This document shows, in pieces, positions 15,309 to 24,485 of a stretch of 64,000 bases of DNA; the first letter of the stretch is position 1, and every line of letters begins with the position of its first letter. The notes under the pieces were generated by a model, which searched no databases, was not told the DNA's origin, and saw only the letters and a list, made by a program, of their open reading frames with translations. A program made the position numbers and the translations under genes. The DNA is taken from positions 158,803-222,802 of the forward strand of contig NZ_KE383876.1 in the NCBI RefSeq assembly GCF_000422565.1, given 5' to 3'. This stretch comes from Desulfovibrio aminophilus DSM 12254 (lineage in GTDB: Bacteria; Desulfobacterota; Desulfovibrionia; Desulfovibrionales; Desulfovibrionaceae).

Positions 15309-16718
15309 ATGAAAACCATACTCGTGTGCGGCGACCCCGCCGCCGACTATTCCGCCGTGGAGCGCTGCTACGAGGACGAATGCCGCGTGGAGCGCTTCGC
15401 GTCCAAGGCTCCGTTCCAGAAGGCCCTGGCCGGGCACCCGGACCTGGCCTTCATCGACGTGCGCTTCCTGGGCGAGGGCCCGGGCCGGGGTTCGGAACGC
15501 CACTACGAGCGCGACCTCACGGCCTTCGCGGAGCTGGCCCCGCAGACCCCGGTGTTCGTGCTCTGCCAGCCGGAGCTGACCCGCGAGGCGGTCAAGGCCG
15601 TGAAGGCCGGGGCGGCCAACTATCTCATCCTGCCCCTGGACGCGACCGAGATCGCCTACGTCACCGAAAGCCTGGAGGAACTGAACCAGCTCCAGCACGA
15701 GCTGGACTACCTGCGCGGGCGGTTCTGGAAAAAAGACCCCGACGACGTGACCCAGACCAACTCCCCGGTCATGCGCGAGGTCTTCCGCAAGCTCCGGCGG
15801 GTGGCCCCCACGCGGACCACGGTGCTGCTCACCGGCGAGACCGGCGTGGGCAAGGGCACCATGGCCCGGCTGGTGCACCTGCACTCCAACCGCGCGGCCA
15901 AGCCGTTCATCGCGGTGCATTGCGGAGCCATCCCGGAAACGCTCATCGAGAGCGAGCTGTTCGGTCATGAGAAGGGGGCCTTCACCGGGGCCGTGCGCCA
16001 GAAGCTCGGCAAGTTCGAGATCGCCTCCGGCGGGACCATCTTCCTGGACGAGGTGGGCACCCTGCCGCCCTCCTCCCAGGTCAAGCTCCTGGGCGTGCTC
16101 CAGGACCGGAGCTTCCAGCGCGTGGGCGGCGAACGGGACATCGAGGCCAACGTGCGGATCATCGCGGCCACCAACGAGAACCTCAAGCAGCTCTGCCGCG
16201 CGGACAAGTTCCGCACGGACCTCTTCTACCGCCTGAACGTCTTCCCGGTGGAGCTGCCGCCGCTGCGCGAACGGGTGGAGGACATTCCGCTCATCGCGGC
16301 CGGAATCCTGGCCCGGATCAAGCGCACCGACCCCTCGGACATCCGAGGCTTCGCGCCCTCGGTTCTGGAGGCCTTCCGGCTCTATCCCTGGCCGGGCAAC
16401 GTCCGTGAGCTGGAGAACGTCATCGAACGGGCCTACATCCTGGAGTCCTCGGACCTGCTGGGCCCCGAGAGCTTCCCGGCCGAGATGTTCGCCGAGGAGG
16501 CCGCCTCCACCCTGCTGCCCGTGGACCCCAGCCTGCCGCTCTCCGAGGCCCGGCGGCGCTACGTGGACGACATGGAGGAGCGCTACCTGCGCGAGGTGCT
16601 GACCCGGCACAAGGGCCGCATCGCGGACACGGCCAAGCACGCGGGCATCACCACCCGCCAGCTGCACAAGCTCATGACCCGCCACGGCCTGAAAAAGGAA
16701 AGCTTCAAAGGATCTTAA
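15309..16718 (+). CDS. Sigma-54-dependent transcriptional activator with receiver domain (NtrC type)
   Basis: 469 residues. An N-terminal receiver-like domain (Asp about 50 in LAFIDVRF, but with atypical flanks) is followed by an AAA+ domain with Walker A GETGVGKG (about 176-183; the usual form is GETGTGKE), GAFTGA sigma-54 contact loop (about 223-228), Walker B TIFLDEVG and R-finger region. A C-terminal Fis-type helix-turn-helix follows (GRIADTAKHAGITTRQLHKL). It remodels sigma-54 polymerase at its target promoters. It is divergent from the hybrid kinase, which probably controls it. The short ATG-proximal region has no strong ribosome site. Confidence 0.9.
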   Translation: MKTILVCGDPAADYSAVERCYEDECRVERFASKAPFQKALAGHPDLAFIDVRFLGEGPGRGSERHYERDLTAFAELAPQTPVFVLCQPELTREAVKAVKAGAANYLILPLDATEIAYVTESLEELNQLQHELDYLRGRFWKKDPDDVTQTNSPVMREVFRKLRRVAPTRTTVLLTGETGVGKGTMARLVHLHSNRAAKPFIAVHCGAIPETLIESELFGHEKGAFTGAVRQKLGKFEIASGGTIFLDEVGTLPPSSQVKLLGVLQDRSFQRVGGERDIEANVRIIAATNENLKQLCRADKFRTDLFYRLNVFPVELPPLRERVEDIPLIAAGILARIKRTDPSDIRGFAPSVLEAFRLYPWPGNVRELENVIERAYILESSDLLGPESFPAEMFAEEAASTLLPVDPSLPLSEARRRYVDDMEERYLREVLTRHKGRIADTAKHAGITTRQLHKLMTRHGLKKESFKGS

Positions 16719-19490: not shown

Positions 19491-19660
19491 AAGGCGAACT
19501 CCCTCGCCGCCAGGGCGGCGCATCAATATGGTTTCACGCGCCCGGAACGCGGGCGCAAAACCCGTCCGGCATATGCCCGCCGCATGGTTTCGTCCAGCCT
19601 GATGCAAATCTTTCGAAAAGCTCCGTCCACCAAGGGTCGCCGAGGATCATTCGGATTAAT

Positions 19661-19679
19661 TCGGAACTTGTTGTTCCGA
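19661..19679. promoter_or_regulatory. Palindromic operator, copy 1
   Basis: TCGGAACTTGTTGTTCCGA: perfect 7-bp arms around 5 nt. Nearest of the three to SulP (171 nt from its ATG). Confidence 0.65.
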
Positions 19680-19691
19680 TAGGTGCATGAG

Positions 19692-19708
19692 CGGAACAAA
19701 CAATTCCG
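19692..19708. promoter_or_regulatory. Palindromic operator, copy 2
   Basis: CGGAACAAACAATTCCG: same core with one arm mismatch. Centre 30 nt (about three helical turns) from copy 1, as expected for cooperative binding on one face. Confidence 0.6.
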
Positions 19709-19815
19709 ATTTTTCTCTAGACTGTCTTTAATCTACGATTCCCCTTGGTTTTTTCCGTCCATCACCCCCTGCGAACTTGCCCAATCCCGGGCTCCGGCAT
19801 TGATCCCTCGATCGA

Positions 19816-19833
19816 TCGGAACAAAGAGTTCCG
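19816..19833. promoter_or_regulatory. Palindromic operator, copy 3
   Basis: TCGGAACAAAGAGTTCCG: arms as in copy 1, 132 nt before the ATG of the next plus-strand gene. Confidence 0.62.
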
Positions 19834-19964
19834 TTCCCGGCGAAACAATCGAGATGAAATCTTCAATTTTTTCATGTCGATATATATTGGTCCCCATCTT
19901 GCTATCGGCCGCGCATTGAGGGACGGGCCCCACGGCTCGCCCGAACCCCTTCCGGGGAGGCTTC

Positions 19965-20270
19965 ATGCACAAGCGCGCGGGTTCCGCCACGGTCCTGACC
20001 GGCATCCTCCATCCCAGCGCCTGGGATGCGCGGGGCGCGGCCACGGCCCTGACCCTGGCCACGGACACCGAGGAGGAGTTCCTGCTCCGGGGGCCCAGCC
20101 CCAGGAGCCTGCGCGGACTCATGGGCGAAGAGGTGGCCGTGCGGGGAGTCGTGCGCCACGCCCCGGAGGGAGACGCCGTGGATGTGCTGGACATCCGGCG
20201 CGTGGAAGAAGATAGTGCGCCCGTTTCTTCGGACGATGGTTATTCAGCCGCCTTGGAGGAGGTCTTCTGA
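19965..20270 (+). CDS. Hypothetical small protein, OB-fold-like
   Basis: 101 residues with GGGGAGG 4 nt before the ATG. The sequence alternates short beta-like stretches (ATVLTGILHPS, TALTLATD, EEFLLRGP, EVAVRGVVRH, VDVLDIRRVEE), like a small OB-fold barrel. No signal peptide. It is one nucleotide upstream of the next gene, so the pair is co-transcribed. Both belong to the stretch between the palindromic operators and the aminomutase operon. Function unknown. Confidence 0.65.
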   Translation: MHKRAGSATVLTGILHPSAWDARGAATALTLATDTEEEFLLRGPSPRSLRGLMGEEVAVRGVVRHAPEGDAVDVLDIRRVEEDSAPVSSDDGYSAALEEVF

Positions 20271-20271
20271 A

Positions 20272-20661
20272 ATGGTCCCGGGTTCCGTCCGTCTCGCCTG
20301 CGCCGCCGCGGCCCTGATCCTGTTCTGCTGCGCCGCGGCCTCGGCCGCGCAGCAGGCCGCGCCCCCGCGCGAGGCCGTGAGCATCTCCGGTCTCATCGTG
20401 GTGGACGACGACGGCTCGGTCATCATCCAGGACGACTCCGGCGTGGACTACGTGGTCCAGGCCCCGGACCTCTCCACCTACTCCGGCGAGGGCATCGTCG
20501 GCGAGGGCGAGACCTGGACCGACGAGAACGGCGACCAGGCCCTCTCCCTGTCGACCTACGAAATCATCGACATCGTCATCACTCCCCAGGAGGAACAGTC
20601 CTCCCCGGAGAAAACCGCACCCGCGCGCCCCACCTCGGCGCGCGCGGAGATCGCGGCCTGA
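20272..20661 (+). CDS. Secreted OB-fold-like protein of unknown function
   Basis: 129 residues with a Sec signal peptide (cut near ASAAQQ, about residue 27). The mature part has repeated beta-like segments (VSISGLIVVDDDG, SVIIQDDSG, VDYVVQAPD) resembling DUF5818-type periplasmic beta-barrel modules, then a disordered acidic and alanine/proline tail. GGAGGAGG lies 9 nt before the ATG. It is paired with the cytoplasmic-type protein just upstream, which has a similar strand pattern. The role is unknown. Confidence 0.65.
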   Translation: MVPGSVRLACAAAALILFCCAAASAAQQAAPPREAVSISGLIVVDDDGSVIIQDDSGVDYVVQAPDLSTYSGEGIVGEGETWTDENGDQALSLSTYEIIDIVITPQEEQSSPEKTAPARPTSARAEIAA

Positions 20662-20705
20662 CCACCAACATCATGCGCGCGGAAGCCCCGCGAAGGAGAA
20701 TGGTC

Positions 20706-22013
20706 ATGAAAGAATGCCTCGACCTCACGGCCAACGAGCCTCCCGACCCCTCGGGGGTCCTGTCCCTGACGGCGGAAGCCTACTCCGCCGGACACGCCCC
20801 CCTGGCTTACGCCCCGACCCTCCGCCCGACCCAGCGGGCCAGGACCATCCATCTGCCCGACGTGCACATCAACGCCCGCACGCGGGACTTCCACCAGAGA
20901 TTTTTCCCCCAGGCCTCGCTCAAGGACTGGAACGACTGGCGCTGGCAGCTGAAGAACCGCTTCGCCACCCTGCCGGACATCGCCCGCGTCCTGGACCTCT
21001 CCGACGACGAGCGCCGGGCCATGATGCTCCCGGCCCACGCCCGGCTGTCCTTCGCCGTGACGCCCTACTACGCCTCCCTGCTGGACCCCGGGAACCCGGC
21101 CCAGCCCGTGCGCCGCTGCGTCATTCCGAGCATGGCCGAGACCCTTCCCGCCCCCGGCGAGGCCGACGACCCCCTGGGCGAGGACGCCCACATGCCCGTT
21201 CCCGGGCTCGTGCACCGCTATCCCGACCGCGTGCTTTTCCTGGTCACGGACTTCTGCTCCACCTACTGCCGCTACTGCACCCGCTCACGCGCCGTGGGCG
21301 GGCACAAGGCCGCGCACGTCTTCAAGAAACGCTGGGAAAAGGCCCTGGCCTACATCGCCGCCACCCCCCAGGTGCGCGACGTGCTCCTCTCCGGCGGCGA
21401 CGCCCTGACCCTCTCCGACGAGGCCATCGACTGGCTTCTCGGGCAACTGCGCTCCATCCCCCACGTGGAGTTCGTGCGCATGGGCTCCAAGGTTCCGGCC
21501 GTGCTGCCCCAGCGCGTGACCAAGAGCCTGACCCGCGTGCTCAAGCGCCACCACCCTCTGTGGGTCAGCCTGCACTTCGCCCACCCCGACGAGCTCACCC
21601 CCGAGACCGTCCGGGCCTGCGAGATGCTCGCCGACGCGGGCGTGCCCCTGGGCTCCCAGACCGTGCTCCTCAAGGGCGTCAACGACGACCCCGCGACCAT
21701 GACCGCCCTGTTCCACGGCCTGCTCAAGGCCCGCGTGCGGCCCTATTACCTCTATCAGTGCGACCCCATCTCCGGCTCCGGCCACTTCCGCACCCCCGTG
21801 AAGGCCGGCATCGACATCATCCGGGCCCTGCGCGGCCACACCACCGGCTACGCCGTGCCCCACTACGTCATCGACGCCCCCGGCGGCGGCGGCAAGATCC
21901 CGATCTGCCCGGAGTACGTCCAGGGGCACGACGGCACGGACCTCGTGCTGACCAACTACGAAGGCAAGACCTTCCGCTACCCCGACACCGCCGGATGCGA
22001 GACCGCTGAATGA
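20706..22013 (+). CDS. kamA: Lysine 2,3-aminomutase-type radical SAM enzyme (KamA family)
   Basis: 435 residues, as usual for KamA. The radical-SAM cluster motif is CSTYCRYC (C184, C188, C191), and the PLP lysine sits in APGGGGK. Both aspartates that hold the lysine side-chain amine in clostridial KAM (D293 and D330) have counterparts, in YQCDP and VIDAPGGGG, with the same 37-residue spacing; glutamate aminomutases differ there. So conversion of L-lysine to beta-lysine is likely. ATG 20706 is chosen for AAGGAGA 6-7 nt upstream (ATG 20700 is too close). It overlaps the next gene by 4 nt. Confidence 0.85.
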   Translation: MKECLDLTANEPPDPSGVLSLTAEAYSAGHAPLAYAPTLRPTQRARTIHLPDVHINARTRDFHQRFFPQASLKDWNDWRWQLKNRFATLPDIARVLDLSDDERRAMMLPAHARLSFAVTPYYASLLDPGNPAQPVRRCVIPSMAETLPAPGEADDPLGEDAHMPVPGLVHRYPDRVLFLVTDFCSTYCRYCTRSRAVGGHKAAHVFKKRWEKALAYIAATPQVRDVLLSGGDALTLSDEAIDWLLGQLRSIPHVEFVRMGSKVPAVLPQRVTKSLTRVLKRHHPLWVSLHFAHPDELTPETVRACEMLADAGVPLGSQTVLLKGVNDDPATMTALFHGLLKARVRPYYLYQCDPISGSGHFRTPVKAGIDIIRALRGHTTGYAVPHYVIDAPGGGGKIPICPEYVQGHDGTDLVLTNYEGKTFRYPDTAGCETAE

Positions 22014-22999
22014 AGATCGGCCTGACCTACGACCTGCAGGACTGGTATCTGGCCCGGGGCTACACCCTGGAGGAGACCGCCGAGTTCGACCGCGTGGACA
22101 CCATCGAGGGCATCGAGTCCGCCCTGGCCTCCCTGGGGCACGAGACCGAGCGCGTGGGCAACGCCTTCGAACTGGTGGAGGCCCTGGCCGCCGGACGCCG
22201 CTGGGACATGGTCTTCAACATCGCCGAAGGCCTGCGCGGCCCCGGCCGCGAGGCCCTGGTCCCGGCCCTGCTGGACGCCTACCGCATCCCCTACACCTTC
22301 TCCGACCCCCTGGTCCTGGCCCTGACCCTGGACAAGGCCGCCTGCAAGCGCGTGGTCCGCGACCTCGGCCTGCCCACCCCGGACTTCGCCGTGGTCCGCG
22401 AACCCGCCGACCTCGCCGCCGTGCGTCTGCCCTTCCCGCTCTTCGCCAAGCCCTGCACCGAAGGCACCGGCAAGGGCATCAGCGGAGCCTCCCGGGTCGA
22501 GACCCCCGAGGCCCTGCGCGAAATCTGCCTCGACCTCCTGTCCCGCTTCCGCCAGCCCGTCCTGGTGGAAACCTACCTGCCCGGCCGCGAGTTCACCGTG
22601 GGTCTGGCCGGGACCGGCTCCCGCGCCCGTTCCCTGGGCTGCATGGAGGTGGTCTTCCTGGAGCGCGCCGAGGCCGGGGCCTACACCTATCTGAACAAGA
22701 AGGACTTCGAGAACCGCGTGGAGTACCGCCCGGCCCGCTGCGCCGACGCCCGCGCCGCCGAGGAGCTGGCCCTGGCCGCCTGGCGCGGACTGGGCTGCCG
22801 CGACGCCGGACGCATCGACATCCGCCTGGACGCCGACGGCCGCCCGAGCTTCATCGAGGTCAACCCCCTGGCCGGGATCAACCCGATCATCTCCGACCTG
22901 GTCATCCTCTGCGGCATGAACACCATCTCCTACCAGGATCTCATCGGCATGATCATGGACTCGGCCCGGGAACGCCTCGCCGGGAGCCCGGCTTGCTGA
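22010..22999 (+). CDS. ATP-grasp ligase, D-Ala-D-Ala-ligase-like (first of two)
   Basis: 329 residues. It has a preATP-grasp Rossmann-like start (MKIGLTYDLQDWYLARG), an ATP-binding loop (FAKPCTEGTGKGISGAS) and a metal-binding end (RIDIRL ... FIEVNPLAGINPI), as in D-Ala-D-Ala ligases. The enzyme should activate a carboxylate as acyl phosphate and join it to an amine. The start overlaps kamA by 4 nt and the next ATP-grasp gene by 7 nt. The true D-Ala-D-Ala ligase is usually in the cell-wall cluster, so this one is probably a pathway ligase acting on beta-lysine or its product. Confidence 0.8.
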   Translation: MKIGLTYDLQDWYLARGYTLEETAEFDRVDTIEGIESALASLGHETERVGNAFELVEALAAGRRWDMVFNIAEGLRGPGREALVPALLDAYRIPYTFSDPLVLALTLDKAACKRVVRDLGLPTPDFAVVREPADLAAVRLPFPLFAKPCTEGTGKGISGASRVETPEALREICLDLLSRFRQPVLVETYLPGREFTVGLAGTGSRARSLGCMEVVFLERAEAGAYTYLNKKDFENRVEYRPARCADARAAEELALAAWRGLGCRDAGRIDIRLDADGRPSFIEVNPLAGINPIISDLVILCGMNTISYQDLIGMIMDSARERLAGSPAC

Positions 23000-24000
23000 T
23001 CGTCGTCCTGCGCGACCGGCTCGCCCCGGACGCGCCCGCCGACGAGGCCGACAACCTGATCCAGGCCCGGGCCGTCGGCCAGGCCCTGGAAGCCCTGGGC
23101 CACCGCGTCCGCGACCTGGAATGCGGCCTGGACCTCGGCCGCGTCGCCGCCGCCCTGGCCGCCGAGCCCCCGGACGCCGTCTTCAACCTCGTGGAGGCCC
23201 TGGACGGCCGCGACACCCTGGCCCCGGCGGTCCCGGCCCTGCTCGACTCCCTGGGTCTGCCGCACACCGGCTCCGGCGCGCTCCCCCTGGCCGCCGCCGC
23301 CGACAAGCTCCGCGCCAAGCTCCTCCTGCGCCGCCTCGGCCTGCCCACCCCGGACTGGTTCGAGCGCGCCGACCTCGCCGACCCGGCCGCCGCGCCCTCC
23401 GGTCCCTTCCTGCTCAAGCCCCGCCTGGAGCACGGCTCCGTGGGCATCGAGGAATCCGACCTGCTCCCGGCTCCGGATCGCGCCGCCCTGGACCGCGCCC
23501 TGGCCGCCAAGGAAGACGCCCTAGGCCAGCCCTGCATCGCCGAGGCCTATCTCCCGGGCCGCGAGTTCAACGTCGCCGTGCTCGACGGCCCCCGCGGCCC
23601 CGAAGTCCTGCCCCCGGCCGAGATGCTCTTCACCGGCTACGGCCCGGACAAGCCCAAGGTTCTCGGCTGGCGCGCCAAGTGGGACGAGGCGAGCTTCGAG
23701 CACGGCCACACCGAACGCACCTTCGATCTGCCGCCCGCCGACGCCCCCCTCGCGGAACGCCTGCGCGCCCTGGCCCTGGCCTGCTTCCAGGCCCTGGACA
23801 TGGCCGGGTACGCCCGCGTGGACTTCCGCCTGGACCACCTCGGCGCGCCCCAGGTCATCGACCTGAACCCCAACCCCTGCATCGCCCCGGACGCCGGATT
23901 CCCGGCCGCCGCCGCCCGCGCCGGTCTGTCCTACCGGGACATGATCGCCCGCGTCCTGGCCGCAGCCCTCCCCGCCCGGTCCCCGGAGACCGTCCCATGA
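22993..24000 (+). CDS. ATP-grasp ligase, second copy
   Basis: 335 residues from a TTG start that overlaps the previous stop. The fold order is the same as in its neighbour: an N-terminal domain with VFNLVEALDGRDTLAP, an ATP loop (LLKPRLEHGSVGIEE), and a Mg site (YARVDFRLDHLG ... VIDLNPNPCIAPDAGF). Sequence similarity to the first copy is only moderate, so they probably add different groups. The tail overlaps the GNAT gene by 4 nt. With kamA and GNAT this makes a four-gene, fully overlapping operon. Confidence 0.8.
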   Translation: MLIVVLRDRLAPDAPADEADNLIQARAVGQALEALGHRVRDLECGLDLGRVAAALAAEPPDAVFNLVEALDGRDTLAPAVPALLDSLGLPHTGSGALPLAAAADKLRAKLLLRRLGLPTPDWFERADLADPAAAPSGPFLLKPRLEHGSVGIEESDLLPAPDRAALDRALAAKEDALGQPCIAEAYLPGREFNVAVLDGPRGPEVLPPAEMLFTGYGPDKPKVLGWRAKWDEASFEHGHTERTFDLPPADAPLAERLRALALACFQALDMAGYARVDFRLDHLGAPQVIDLNPNPCIAPDAGFPAAAARAGLSYRDMIARVLAAALPARSPETVP

Positions 24001-24485
24001 CCACCCCCGACATCTTCCGCGACGAGGTCTTCCCCGAGGACGTGGAGGCCATCCGCGCCCTGGTCCGCTCCACCGGCTTCTTCACCGAGGCGGAGTGCGT
24101 CATGGCCGGAGACCTGGCCGCCGAACGCCTGGAAAAAGGCCTCGACGCCTCCGGCTACCACTTCCTCTTCCTCGGCCCGGCCGGAGCCTTCCAGGCCTAT
24201 TCCTGCTTCGGCCCCGTCTGCTGCGCCCAGGGCAGCTTCGACTTCTACTGGCTGGCCGTCCTGGGCGGCCTGCGCGGCAAGGGCGTCGGAACCCGCATGC
24301 TCGCCGCCACCGAGGCCGCCATGAAGGCCCTCGGCTGCCGCAAGGTCTGGATCGAAACCTCCACCCAGCCCCTCTACACCCCCACCCGCGCCTTCTACCT
24401 CGCCCGGGGCTACCGCCTCGAAGCCACCCTCGAAGACTTCTACGCCCCCGGCGACGGCAAGGCCGTTTTCTCGAAAGTCCTGTGA
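23997..24485 (+). CDS. GNAT-family N-acetyltransferase
   Basis: 162 residues with GNAT motif A (YWLAVLGGLRGKGVGTRML, acetyl-CoA loop RGKGVG), then a C-terminal FYLARGYRLEA element. It transfers an acetyl group from acetyl-CoA to an amine. AblB, the classical beta-lysine acetyltransferase of osmolyte clusters, is longer, so this is not simply AblB. It likely caps an amino group of the ATP-grasp product. It is the last gene of the overlapping operon. Confidence 0.82.
   Translation: MTTPDIFRDEVFPEDVEAIRALVRSTGFFTEAECVMAGDLAAERLEKGLDASGYHFLFLGPAGAFQAYSCFGPVCCAQGSFDFYWLAVLGGLRGKGVGTRMLAATEAAMKALGCRKVWIETSTQPLYTPTRAFYLARGYRLEATLEDFYAPGDGKAVFSKVL

Follow-up and report, generated by a model that had tools for sequence, protein, structure and literature searches.

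What does a bacterium make with an operon that joins a lysine 2,3-aminomutase (KAM) to two ATP-grasp ligases and a GNAT N-acetyltransferase? The question is raised by a stretch of 64,000 nucleotides from Desulfovibrio aminophilus DSM 12254 (contig NZ_KE383876.1), referred to here as the window, in which four + strand open reading frames, each overlapping the next, occupy positions 20706-24485. A first-pass annotation of the window had recognized these four genes and their families, and both coordinates and Pfam matches bear this out. The ligases are called GRASP1 and GRASP2 in gene order. The comparisons described below show that the operon represents a real, conserved biosynthetic system, the enzyme kinds of which are known and the combination of which is new as far as the literature was searched. 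The operon probably turns lysine into beta-lysine and builds a small acetylated beta-lysine compound, and a small capped beta-amino-acid conjugate, as had been proposed at first pass, is still the best guess for its product.

Conservation of the gene set

Loci were fetched for 80 of 117 confirmed GRASP1 relatives, the orthologs in the set aligned being 49-95% identical to that of the window (loci and genomes are cited by our L and G numbers). Because all four genes were found together in 55 of these 80 loci, the gene set does not reflect chance. By NCBI name, the loci belong to Myxococcota (19, mostly titled 'Deltaproteobacteria bacterium'), Thermodesulfobacteriota (17), Planctomycetota (11, one of them labelled Kuenenia), Bacteroidota (10), Pseudomonadota (8), Fidelibacterota (4), Spirochaetota (3), and Acidobacteriota, Elusimicrobiota and Nitrospinota (1 each), with no phylum given for 5. 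The operon is present in 21 of 59 genomes of the window's bacterial family, and the system also occurs far outside the Desulfovibrionales, which could not be seen at first pass.

Among the 25 loci without the full set, 13 are cut by or lie near contig ends, two (L016 and L055) are undecided, and ten with sequence to spare were followed for KAM and GRASP2 only, not for GNAT. KAM was missing from eight of these ten loci, and seven of the eight genomes hold a KAM elsewhere (394-573 bits); GRASP2 was likewise missing from eight, with six of the genomes holding one elsewhere (167-331 bits).

Gene fusions join the same partners. An in-frame KAM-GRASP1 fusion of 875 residues occurs in an isolate genome (L007), GRASP2 is fused in frame to GNAT in L023, L041, L068, L071, L072 and L135, and in-frame deacetylase-GNAT fusions occur in L078 and L119, the domains being confirmed for L119. 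The fusions of KAM with GRASP1 and of GRASP2 with GNAT suggest an order of steps in which KAM is followed by GRASP1 and then by GRASP2 with GNAT. An apparent GRASP1-GRASP2 fusion in L016 was dropped, as an ambiguous residue lies at its junction.

Sequences that contained a stop or an X or were of odd length were excluded from the protein sets used below, which comprise 78 KAM (76 distinct), 92 GRASP1 (90), 70 GRASP2 (68), 70 GNAT (67) and 32 GNAT-deacetylase proteins (25), duplicates coming from loci fetched twice. Single-linkage clustering lumped 259 genes of all four operon families and was not used for gene orders.

Predicted substrate of the aminomutase

The window KAM belongs to the KamA family (TIGR00238, 346.1 bits against a cut-off of 199.2), with the CxxxCxxC cluster and the pyridoxal phosphate lysine K408 in place, and it aligns with the solved lysine 2,3-aminomutase 2A5H across residues 76-438 (E 1.6e-132). 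In this alignment the cluster cysteines, R134, D293, D330 and K337 of 2A5H, the roles of which we take as established, correspond to C195/C199/C202, R204, D364, D401 and K408, none of which varies among the 76 distinct operon KAMs. The two aspartates picked out at first pass are thus confirmed as D364 and D401, the counterparts of D293 and D330, which bind lysine in the solved enzyme. Because the lysine-binding residues are invariant and lysA (TIGR01048) lies within a few kb of the operon in L031 and L034, free L-lysine is supported as the predicted substrate of KAM, in agreement with the earlier proposal.

A second KamA-family protein is encoded elsewhere in the window's genome (L114 1285-2415, G000:C10); it scores above the TIGR00238 cut-off and below those of AblA, EpmB and other specific models.

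Two ligases of the Ddl fold

GRASP1 and GRASP2 are 30% identical over 315 residues, which upholds their description as two unlike ligases. Their predicted structures (predicted local distance difference test scores of 94.0 and 94.9) both have the fold of the D-Ala-D-Ala ligase Ddl (GRASP1, Z 32.7 and 2.4 A over 291 residues; GRASP2, Z 32.9 and 2.6 A over 292). Because Ddl-type rows alone (D-Ala, D-lactate and D-serine ligases) were among the 50 matches listed, the fold comparison does not discriminate substrates.

In a tree of 19 GRASP1, 16 GRASP2 and 11 Ddl sequences, the last from the window's bacterial family, the three groups form separate clades with support of 100/99, 100/99 and 100/100, respectively, and with a program warning on long branches meeting. 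The second-substrate motif of Ddl, PGMTxTSLxP, is present in 11 of 11 Ddl proteins and in none of 90 distinct GRASP1 or 68 distinct GRASP2 proteins. The best model scores of the two ligases, 124.9 and 113.8 bits, miss the cut-off of 243, and neither protein reaches the threshold of any Ddl or Van model among the matches listed. Furthermore, a Ddl that carries the substrate motif is encoded on another contig of the window's genome (G000:C3, L099).

GRASP1 and GRASP2 share the catalytic lysines and metal ligands of Ddl: the lysines are invariant in both, together with R and N residues, and the metal-ligand acids are conserved as D or E (in GRASP2, D277 in 67/68, and D or E at position 290). GRASP1 also carries E25/D27 and an invariant S295-D296 pair, and W230 of GRASP2, next to the catalytic lysine K229, is present in 68/68; these residues may shape substrate choice. 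TIGR03103, which we take to be the model for Ngg (NAGGN synthetase), was not among the matches listed for the ligases, these being all 25 families for one protein and the best 25 of 32 for the other.

An optional fifth component

A gene for a GNAT-deacetylase fusion, invisible from the window alone, is found in 18 of the 80 loci, and its belonging to the system is new here. While the four-gene set proposed at first pass is real, it was therefore incomplete. The proteins, mostly of 580-599 residues, begin with a GNAT-like part, which Pfam matches in L003 and L035 but not in L065, and continue with a domain of the histone-deacetylase fold; the gene is split in L058 and fused in L078. PF00850 was matched in all four fusion proteins scanned, and none of the 25 distinct proteins lacks a zinc ligand or the catalytic tyrosine. 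The nearest solved relative of the deacetylase domain from the window's genome is the acetylpolyamine amidohydrolase 6PHR (E 1.9e-72), and HDAC6 also matches (E 1.3e-59). The gene takes any of three positions: between KAM and GRASP1 (e.g., L035, L046, L057, L061), between GRASP2 and GNAT (L003, L006, L019, L021), or after GNAT (L009, L011, L012, L060, L069). In the window's genome it lies outside the window, about 96 kb from KAM (G000:C24:81507-83246).

Scored as present at 716 bits or more, or when split (G021), the fusion occurs in 18 of the 59 family genomes, comprising 18 of 21 with the operon and 0 of 38 without it (Fisher p 2e-12, ignoring shared ancestry); in the operon-less genomes, weaker matches cover the deacetylase part alone. 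At the level of the phylum, 22 of 247 genomes have the fusion and 60 have GRASP1 at E<=1e-60, with 17 of the 22 carriers in the latter group (Fisher p 5e-8, with the same limit). In the other five carriers (G066, G129, G155, G234, G299), a GRASP2-type gene adjoins a KAM scoring 361-526 bits, and a KAM of at least 354 bits is present in 22/22. The fusion was thus never seen without the system in these genome draws, and yet it is optional, because 43 of the 60 phylum genomes with GRASP1 lack it.

In a genome of the window's genus (L113, G028:C5), about 4 kb separate the fusion from an AblA gene.

Co-occurrence, operon placement and gene fusions support the conclusion that the five parts constitute one system. 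Several observations weigh against so tight an association. Besides the 43 genomes just mentioned and the shared ancestry that the Fisher values leave out of account, the operon is present and the fusion absent in G023 and G024, and also in G022, a genome that is 67% complete. Because most loci come from metagenome assemblies, some of the fusions and gaps may be assembly errors. GRASP1 is present in Rhizobium setariae (L066/G319), and neither an operon-type KAM nor GRASP2 was found in its genome; a genome search likewise found no GRASP2 for L004/G311. G129 has KAM and a GRASP2-GNAT fusion and gave no GRASP1 match at E<=1e-60, so that the system may be able to do without this ligase.

A proposed pathway and its alternatives

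With moderate confidence, we propose a dedicated pathway in which beta-lysine becomes part of a small and soluble conjugate that carries an N-acetyl group, most likely a short non-ribosomal peptide in which no more than two amide bonds are formed. As suggested by its invariant active-site residues, KAM would convert free L-lysine to beta-lysine. GRASP1 would then use ATP to form an amide bond between beta-lysine and a partner, a step for which the KAM-GRASP1 fusion supports adjacency. GRASP2 would make a second ATP-dependent bond, and GNAT would acetylate the substrate or product of GRASP2, as the GRASP2-GNAT fusions suggest. Where the GNAT-deacetylase fusion is present, an N-acetyl group may be put on and later taken off a lysine-like amine, following either a protect-ligate-deprotect logic or turnover of the product. 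Because the conserved lysine-binding aspartates of KAM read a free epsilon-amine, the KAM reaction is expected to precede any acetylation of that amine. We infer the sequence of reactions, the amino acids to which beta-lysine is joined and the function of the product in the cell. The overlaps between the genes of the window leave no space for a carrier-protein or precursor-peptide gene, and no transporter is among the four; both points favor a soluble, intracellular product. Solely on the analogy of AblAB and NAGGN, an intracellular solute of the osmolyte type is our tentative first choice of role. More doubtful is a specific elaboration of the same pathway, in which the fusion caps the epsilon-amine of beta-lysine, the two ligases build a beta-lysine tripeptide and the deacetylase uncaps it, to yield a previously unknown and possibly cofactor-like metabolite of many phyla.

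Four alternatives to a dedicated conjugate pathway were considered. The operon might make only N-epsilon-acetyl-beta-lysine by means of a different acetyltransferase, with the ligases serving otherwise or in recycling. A KAM together with a GNAT follows the logic of AblAB, and no AblA-class KAM was found in the window's own genome in the scan of the 59 family genomes. However, AblA-class KAMs (376-401 bits) are present in 13 of these genomes, 10 of which also have the operon described here, and an AblB (TIGR03827) adjoined the AblA-class KAM in 5/5 examined; genuine AblAB thus coexists with the operon in relatives. The operon GNAT of the window gave no match to TIGR03827 (cut-off 205.1 bits) and showed no similarity to an AblB on comparison, being likewise unlike the GNAT-deacetylase fusion of the same genome. 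The window KAM misses the cut-off of the AblA model TIGR03820 (464.7 bits against 525.4), on which the two AblA proteins scored, L108 and L109, reach 738 and 777 bits. It has D339 in place of C268 of AblA, which with a C-terminal cysteine cluster forms a zinc site, and its tail has no CxxxCxxC. The C268 position is a cysteine in just 1 of 76 operon KAMs and a close cysteine pair occurs in the tail of four (L005, L050, L068, L103), whereas the cluster CDRxCxxC is kept in 7 of 7 AblA sequences from the window's bacterial family. Because the KAM falls under the AblA cut-off and lacks the zinc-cysteine cluster, the GNAT is of another type than AblB, and relatives carry true AblAB as separate genes, it was concluded that the operon is a system distinct from AblA/AblB, as had been surmised at first pass. 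Plain AblAB is ruled out by the scores, the GNAT and the separate AblAB genes, and because both ligases are retained and occur as fusions with KAM or GNAT, an operon making acetyl-beta-lysine alone is unlikely.

A low probability is also given to the idea that the ligases load beta-lysine on a macromolecule, whether a protein side chain, peptidoglycan or lipid, with the GNAT and deacetylase editing the modification. Ligases of the Ddl fold act in cell-wall synthesis, and EF-P carries a beta-lysine that is added via EpmB/EpmA. Against this, the operons compared showed no target gene in common, the ligases have a compact Ddl fold, and the deacetylase domain is nearest to small-molecule acetylpolyamine amidohydrolases, though HDAC6 matches too.

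That KAM acts instead on ornithine, arginine or a lysine derivative, giving a conjugate of another beta-amino acid, is improbable. Besides its AblA score, this idea draws on a KamA tree of 39 rows, in which a weak split (78/100) sets 7 AblA rows and the very long-branched L156 apart from the rest, made up of the operon KAMs, divergent relatives of these and four further KamA-type rows; the sibling models also include glutamate and arginine mutases. Nevertheless, AblA is the best-scoring NCBIfam model for the window KAM, at 464.7 bits against 418.9 for the glutamate and 372.4 for the arginine mutase model, both lysine-binding aspartates are kept in 76/76, and lysA is near two loci. Finally, D-Ala-D-Ala or D-Ala-D-X ligases, altering peptidoglycan or giving glycopeptide resistance, would fit the Pfam family Dala_Dala_lig_C and the Ddl fold, but this reading, which the first-pass annotation had named as one that would refute its proposal, is refuted in the main and most improbable, ordinary Ddl identity being ruled out by the model scores, the host's own Ddl, the separate clades and the missing substrate motif (0/90 and 0/68).

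Layout and neighborhood of the operon

The coordinates of the four genes are collected in Table 1. Consecutive genes overlap by 4 (KAM/GRASP1), 7 (GRASP1/GRASP2) and 4 bases (GRASP2/GNAT). Although an alternative in-frame ATG for KAM lies at 20673, the start at 20706 is most likely, because AAGGAG sits directly ahead of it. GRASP2 starts with TTG, preceded by GGGAG.

Table 1. Genes of the operon, in window coordinates
Gene	Product	Position	Strand	Pfam
KAM	KamA-family radical SAM lysine 2,3-aminomutase, operon type, without C-terminal zinc-cysteine cluster	20706..22013	+	LAM_C, Radical_SAM
GRASP1	Ddl-fold ATP-grasp ligase, better conserved of the two, not a Ddl	22010..22999	+	Dala_Dala_lig_C
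GRASP2	Second Ddl-fold ATP-grasp ligase, own clade, GNAT-fused in six loci	22993..24000	+	Dala_Dala_lig_C
GNAT	GNAT N-acetyltransferase, not AblB	23997..24485	+	Acetyltransf_1

At E<=1e-10, 6 of 20 relatives gave a match to the GNAT of the window. G302, of the same genus, gave no GNAT match, and its KAM (825 bits) lies about 1.1 kb from a contig end; its operon is therefore probably cut there.

Two small co-directional open reading frames (19965-20270 and 20272-20661) lie directly 5' of KAM; by eye, the second begins with what resembles a signal peptide. Because relatives of the second, among L001-L088 and besides the window's own copy (L081), are confined to L001 and the same-genus L082, it is probably not part of the system. 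Genes inserted between KAM and GRASP1 in other loci are lineage-specific: a SET domain protein (L050 2083-2562), a CxxCxxCC domain protein (L023 7484-8026), a protein that is ATP-grasp-like by eye without a Pfam match (L047 7015-7995), and a weak, below-cut-off ATPgrasp_ST match (L143 2091-3050).

No regulator is common to all lineages; a TetR, helix-turn-helix (HTH)-cupin or sigma-54 regulator is present depending on lineage. A sigma-54 activator gene lies 0.2-1.3 kb upstream of KAM in L007 (Pfam-matched), L015, L040, L060, L064 and L069, and a gene resembling such an activator by look (15309-16718) lies 4 kb upstream in the window. Strict sigma-54 promoter matches upstream of KAM were found in 2 of 70 regions, against 0.5 expected, and none was found on the + strand of window 19501-20800. 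An HTH and cupin regulator precedes KAM in L127 (PuuR-like, below cut-off) and L138 (by eye). Within one bacterial family, two of the four genomes (L125, L139; domain families matched for L139) have Amidohydro_3 and PuuD-like Peptidase_C26 genes downstream of GNAT, which are possible catabolic partners. A PhoU_div protein is encoded downstream of the operon in L016, L017, L028, L031, L034 and L038 (Pfam-matched for L038), and in five of these loci the gene that comes next looks by eye like a PiT transporter.

Candidate explanations involving mobile elements or defense were not borne out. Spread on plasmids gave no match at E<=1e-40, spread on phages just one distant match (30.6%), and PADLOC returned 0 matches for the five proteins as an anti-phage defense system. 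The phage match is a distant GRASP1 relative, covering 98% of the query, at 491-1453 of MT838362.1, a 5.4-kb 'Bacteriophage sp.' record from human faeces that is possibly not phage DNA.

Relationship to known systems

Among open-licence full texts, the subscription literature being outside the scope, none was found joining an aminomutase with ATP-grasp and GNAT enzymes, or beta-lysine with aminomutase and ATP-grasp enzymes, nor was any found on ATP-grasp with histone deacetylase, acetyltransferase and peptide ligase, or on acetylpolyamine amidohydrolase with aminomutase; those combining aminomutase and ATP-grasp concern other subjects by title and abstract start. A 2009 amidoligase survey by Iyer, Aravind and colleagues may reportedly mention such neighborhoods, and a prior mention is possible. 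The system points to a beta-amino-acid metabolite made by conserved enzymes in sulfate reducers, planctomycetes, Bacteroidota, Spirochaetota and others, and it could offer a new assignment for proteins that general models would name D-Ala-D-Ala ligase or lysine 2,3-aminomutase.

In pyrrolysine synthesis a radical SAM mutase, PylB, acts on lysine and is followed by an ATP-grasp ligase, PylC, a succession that the operon resembles. PylB is not a KamA-type aminomutase, however, and the operon has two ligases and acetylation. AblA/AblB shares with the operon a KamA-type lysine mutase, a GNAT and beta-lysine as a likely intermediate, while the operon lacks an AblB-type GNAT and the zinc-cysteine cluster and adds two ATP-grasp ligases and an optional fusion. 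Several papers describe the AblAB pathway to N-epsilon-acetyl-beta-lysine in methanogens and propose it in bacteria (PMC3543383, PMC11201294, PMC1224877). Ngg of the NAGGN pathway is described as one protein that performs both N-acetylation and peptide-bond formation (PMC8070244), two activities that the GRASP2-GNAT fusions would likewise pair. In contrast to NAGGN synthesis by Ngg/AsnO, the operon would start from beta-lysine and includes a further ligase and, as an optional part, a deacetylase, and no AsnO-type gene was recognized in the operons, no search aimed at AsnO having been made. The complete HDAC-fold zinc site of the fusion is shared with acetylpolyamine amidohydrolase, its nearest solved relative, from which it differs by a GNAT domain at the N terminus, joined in L078 and L119 by a second at the C terminus. 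If the protecting-group idea is true, a GNAT-deacetylase fusion in a biosynthetic operon would represent a new use of the HDAC fold.

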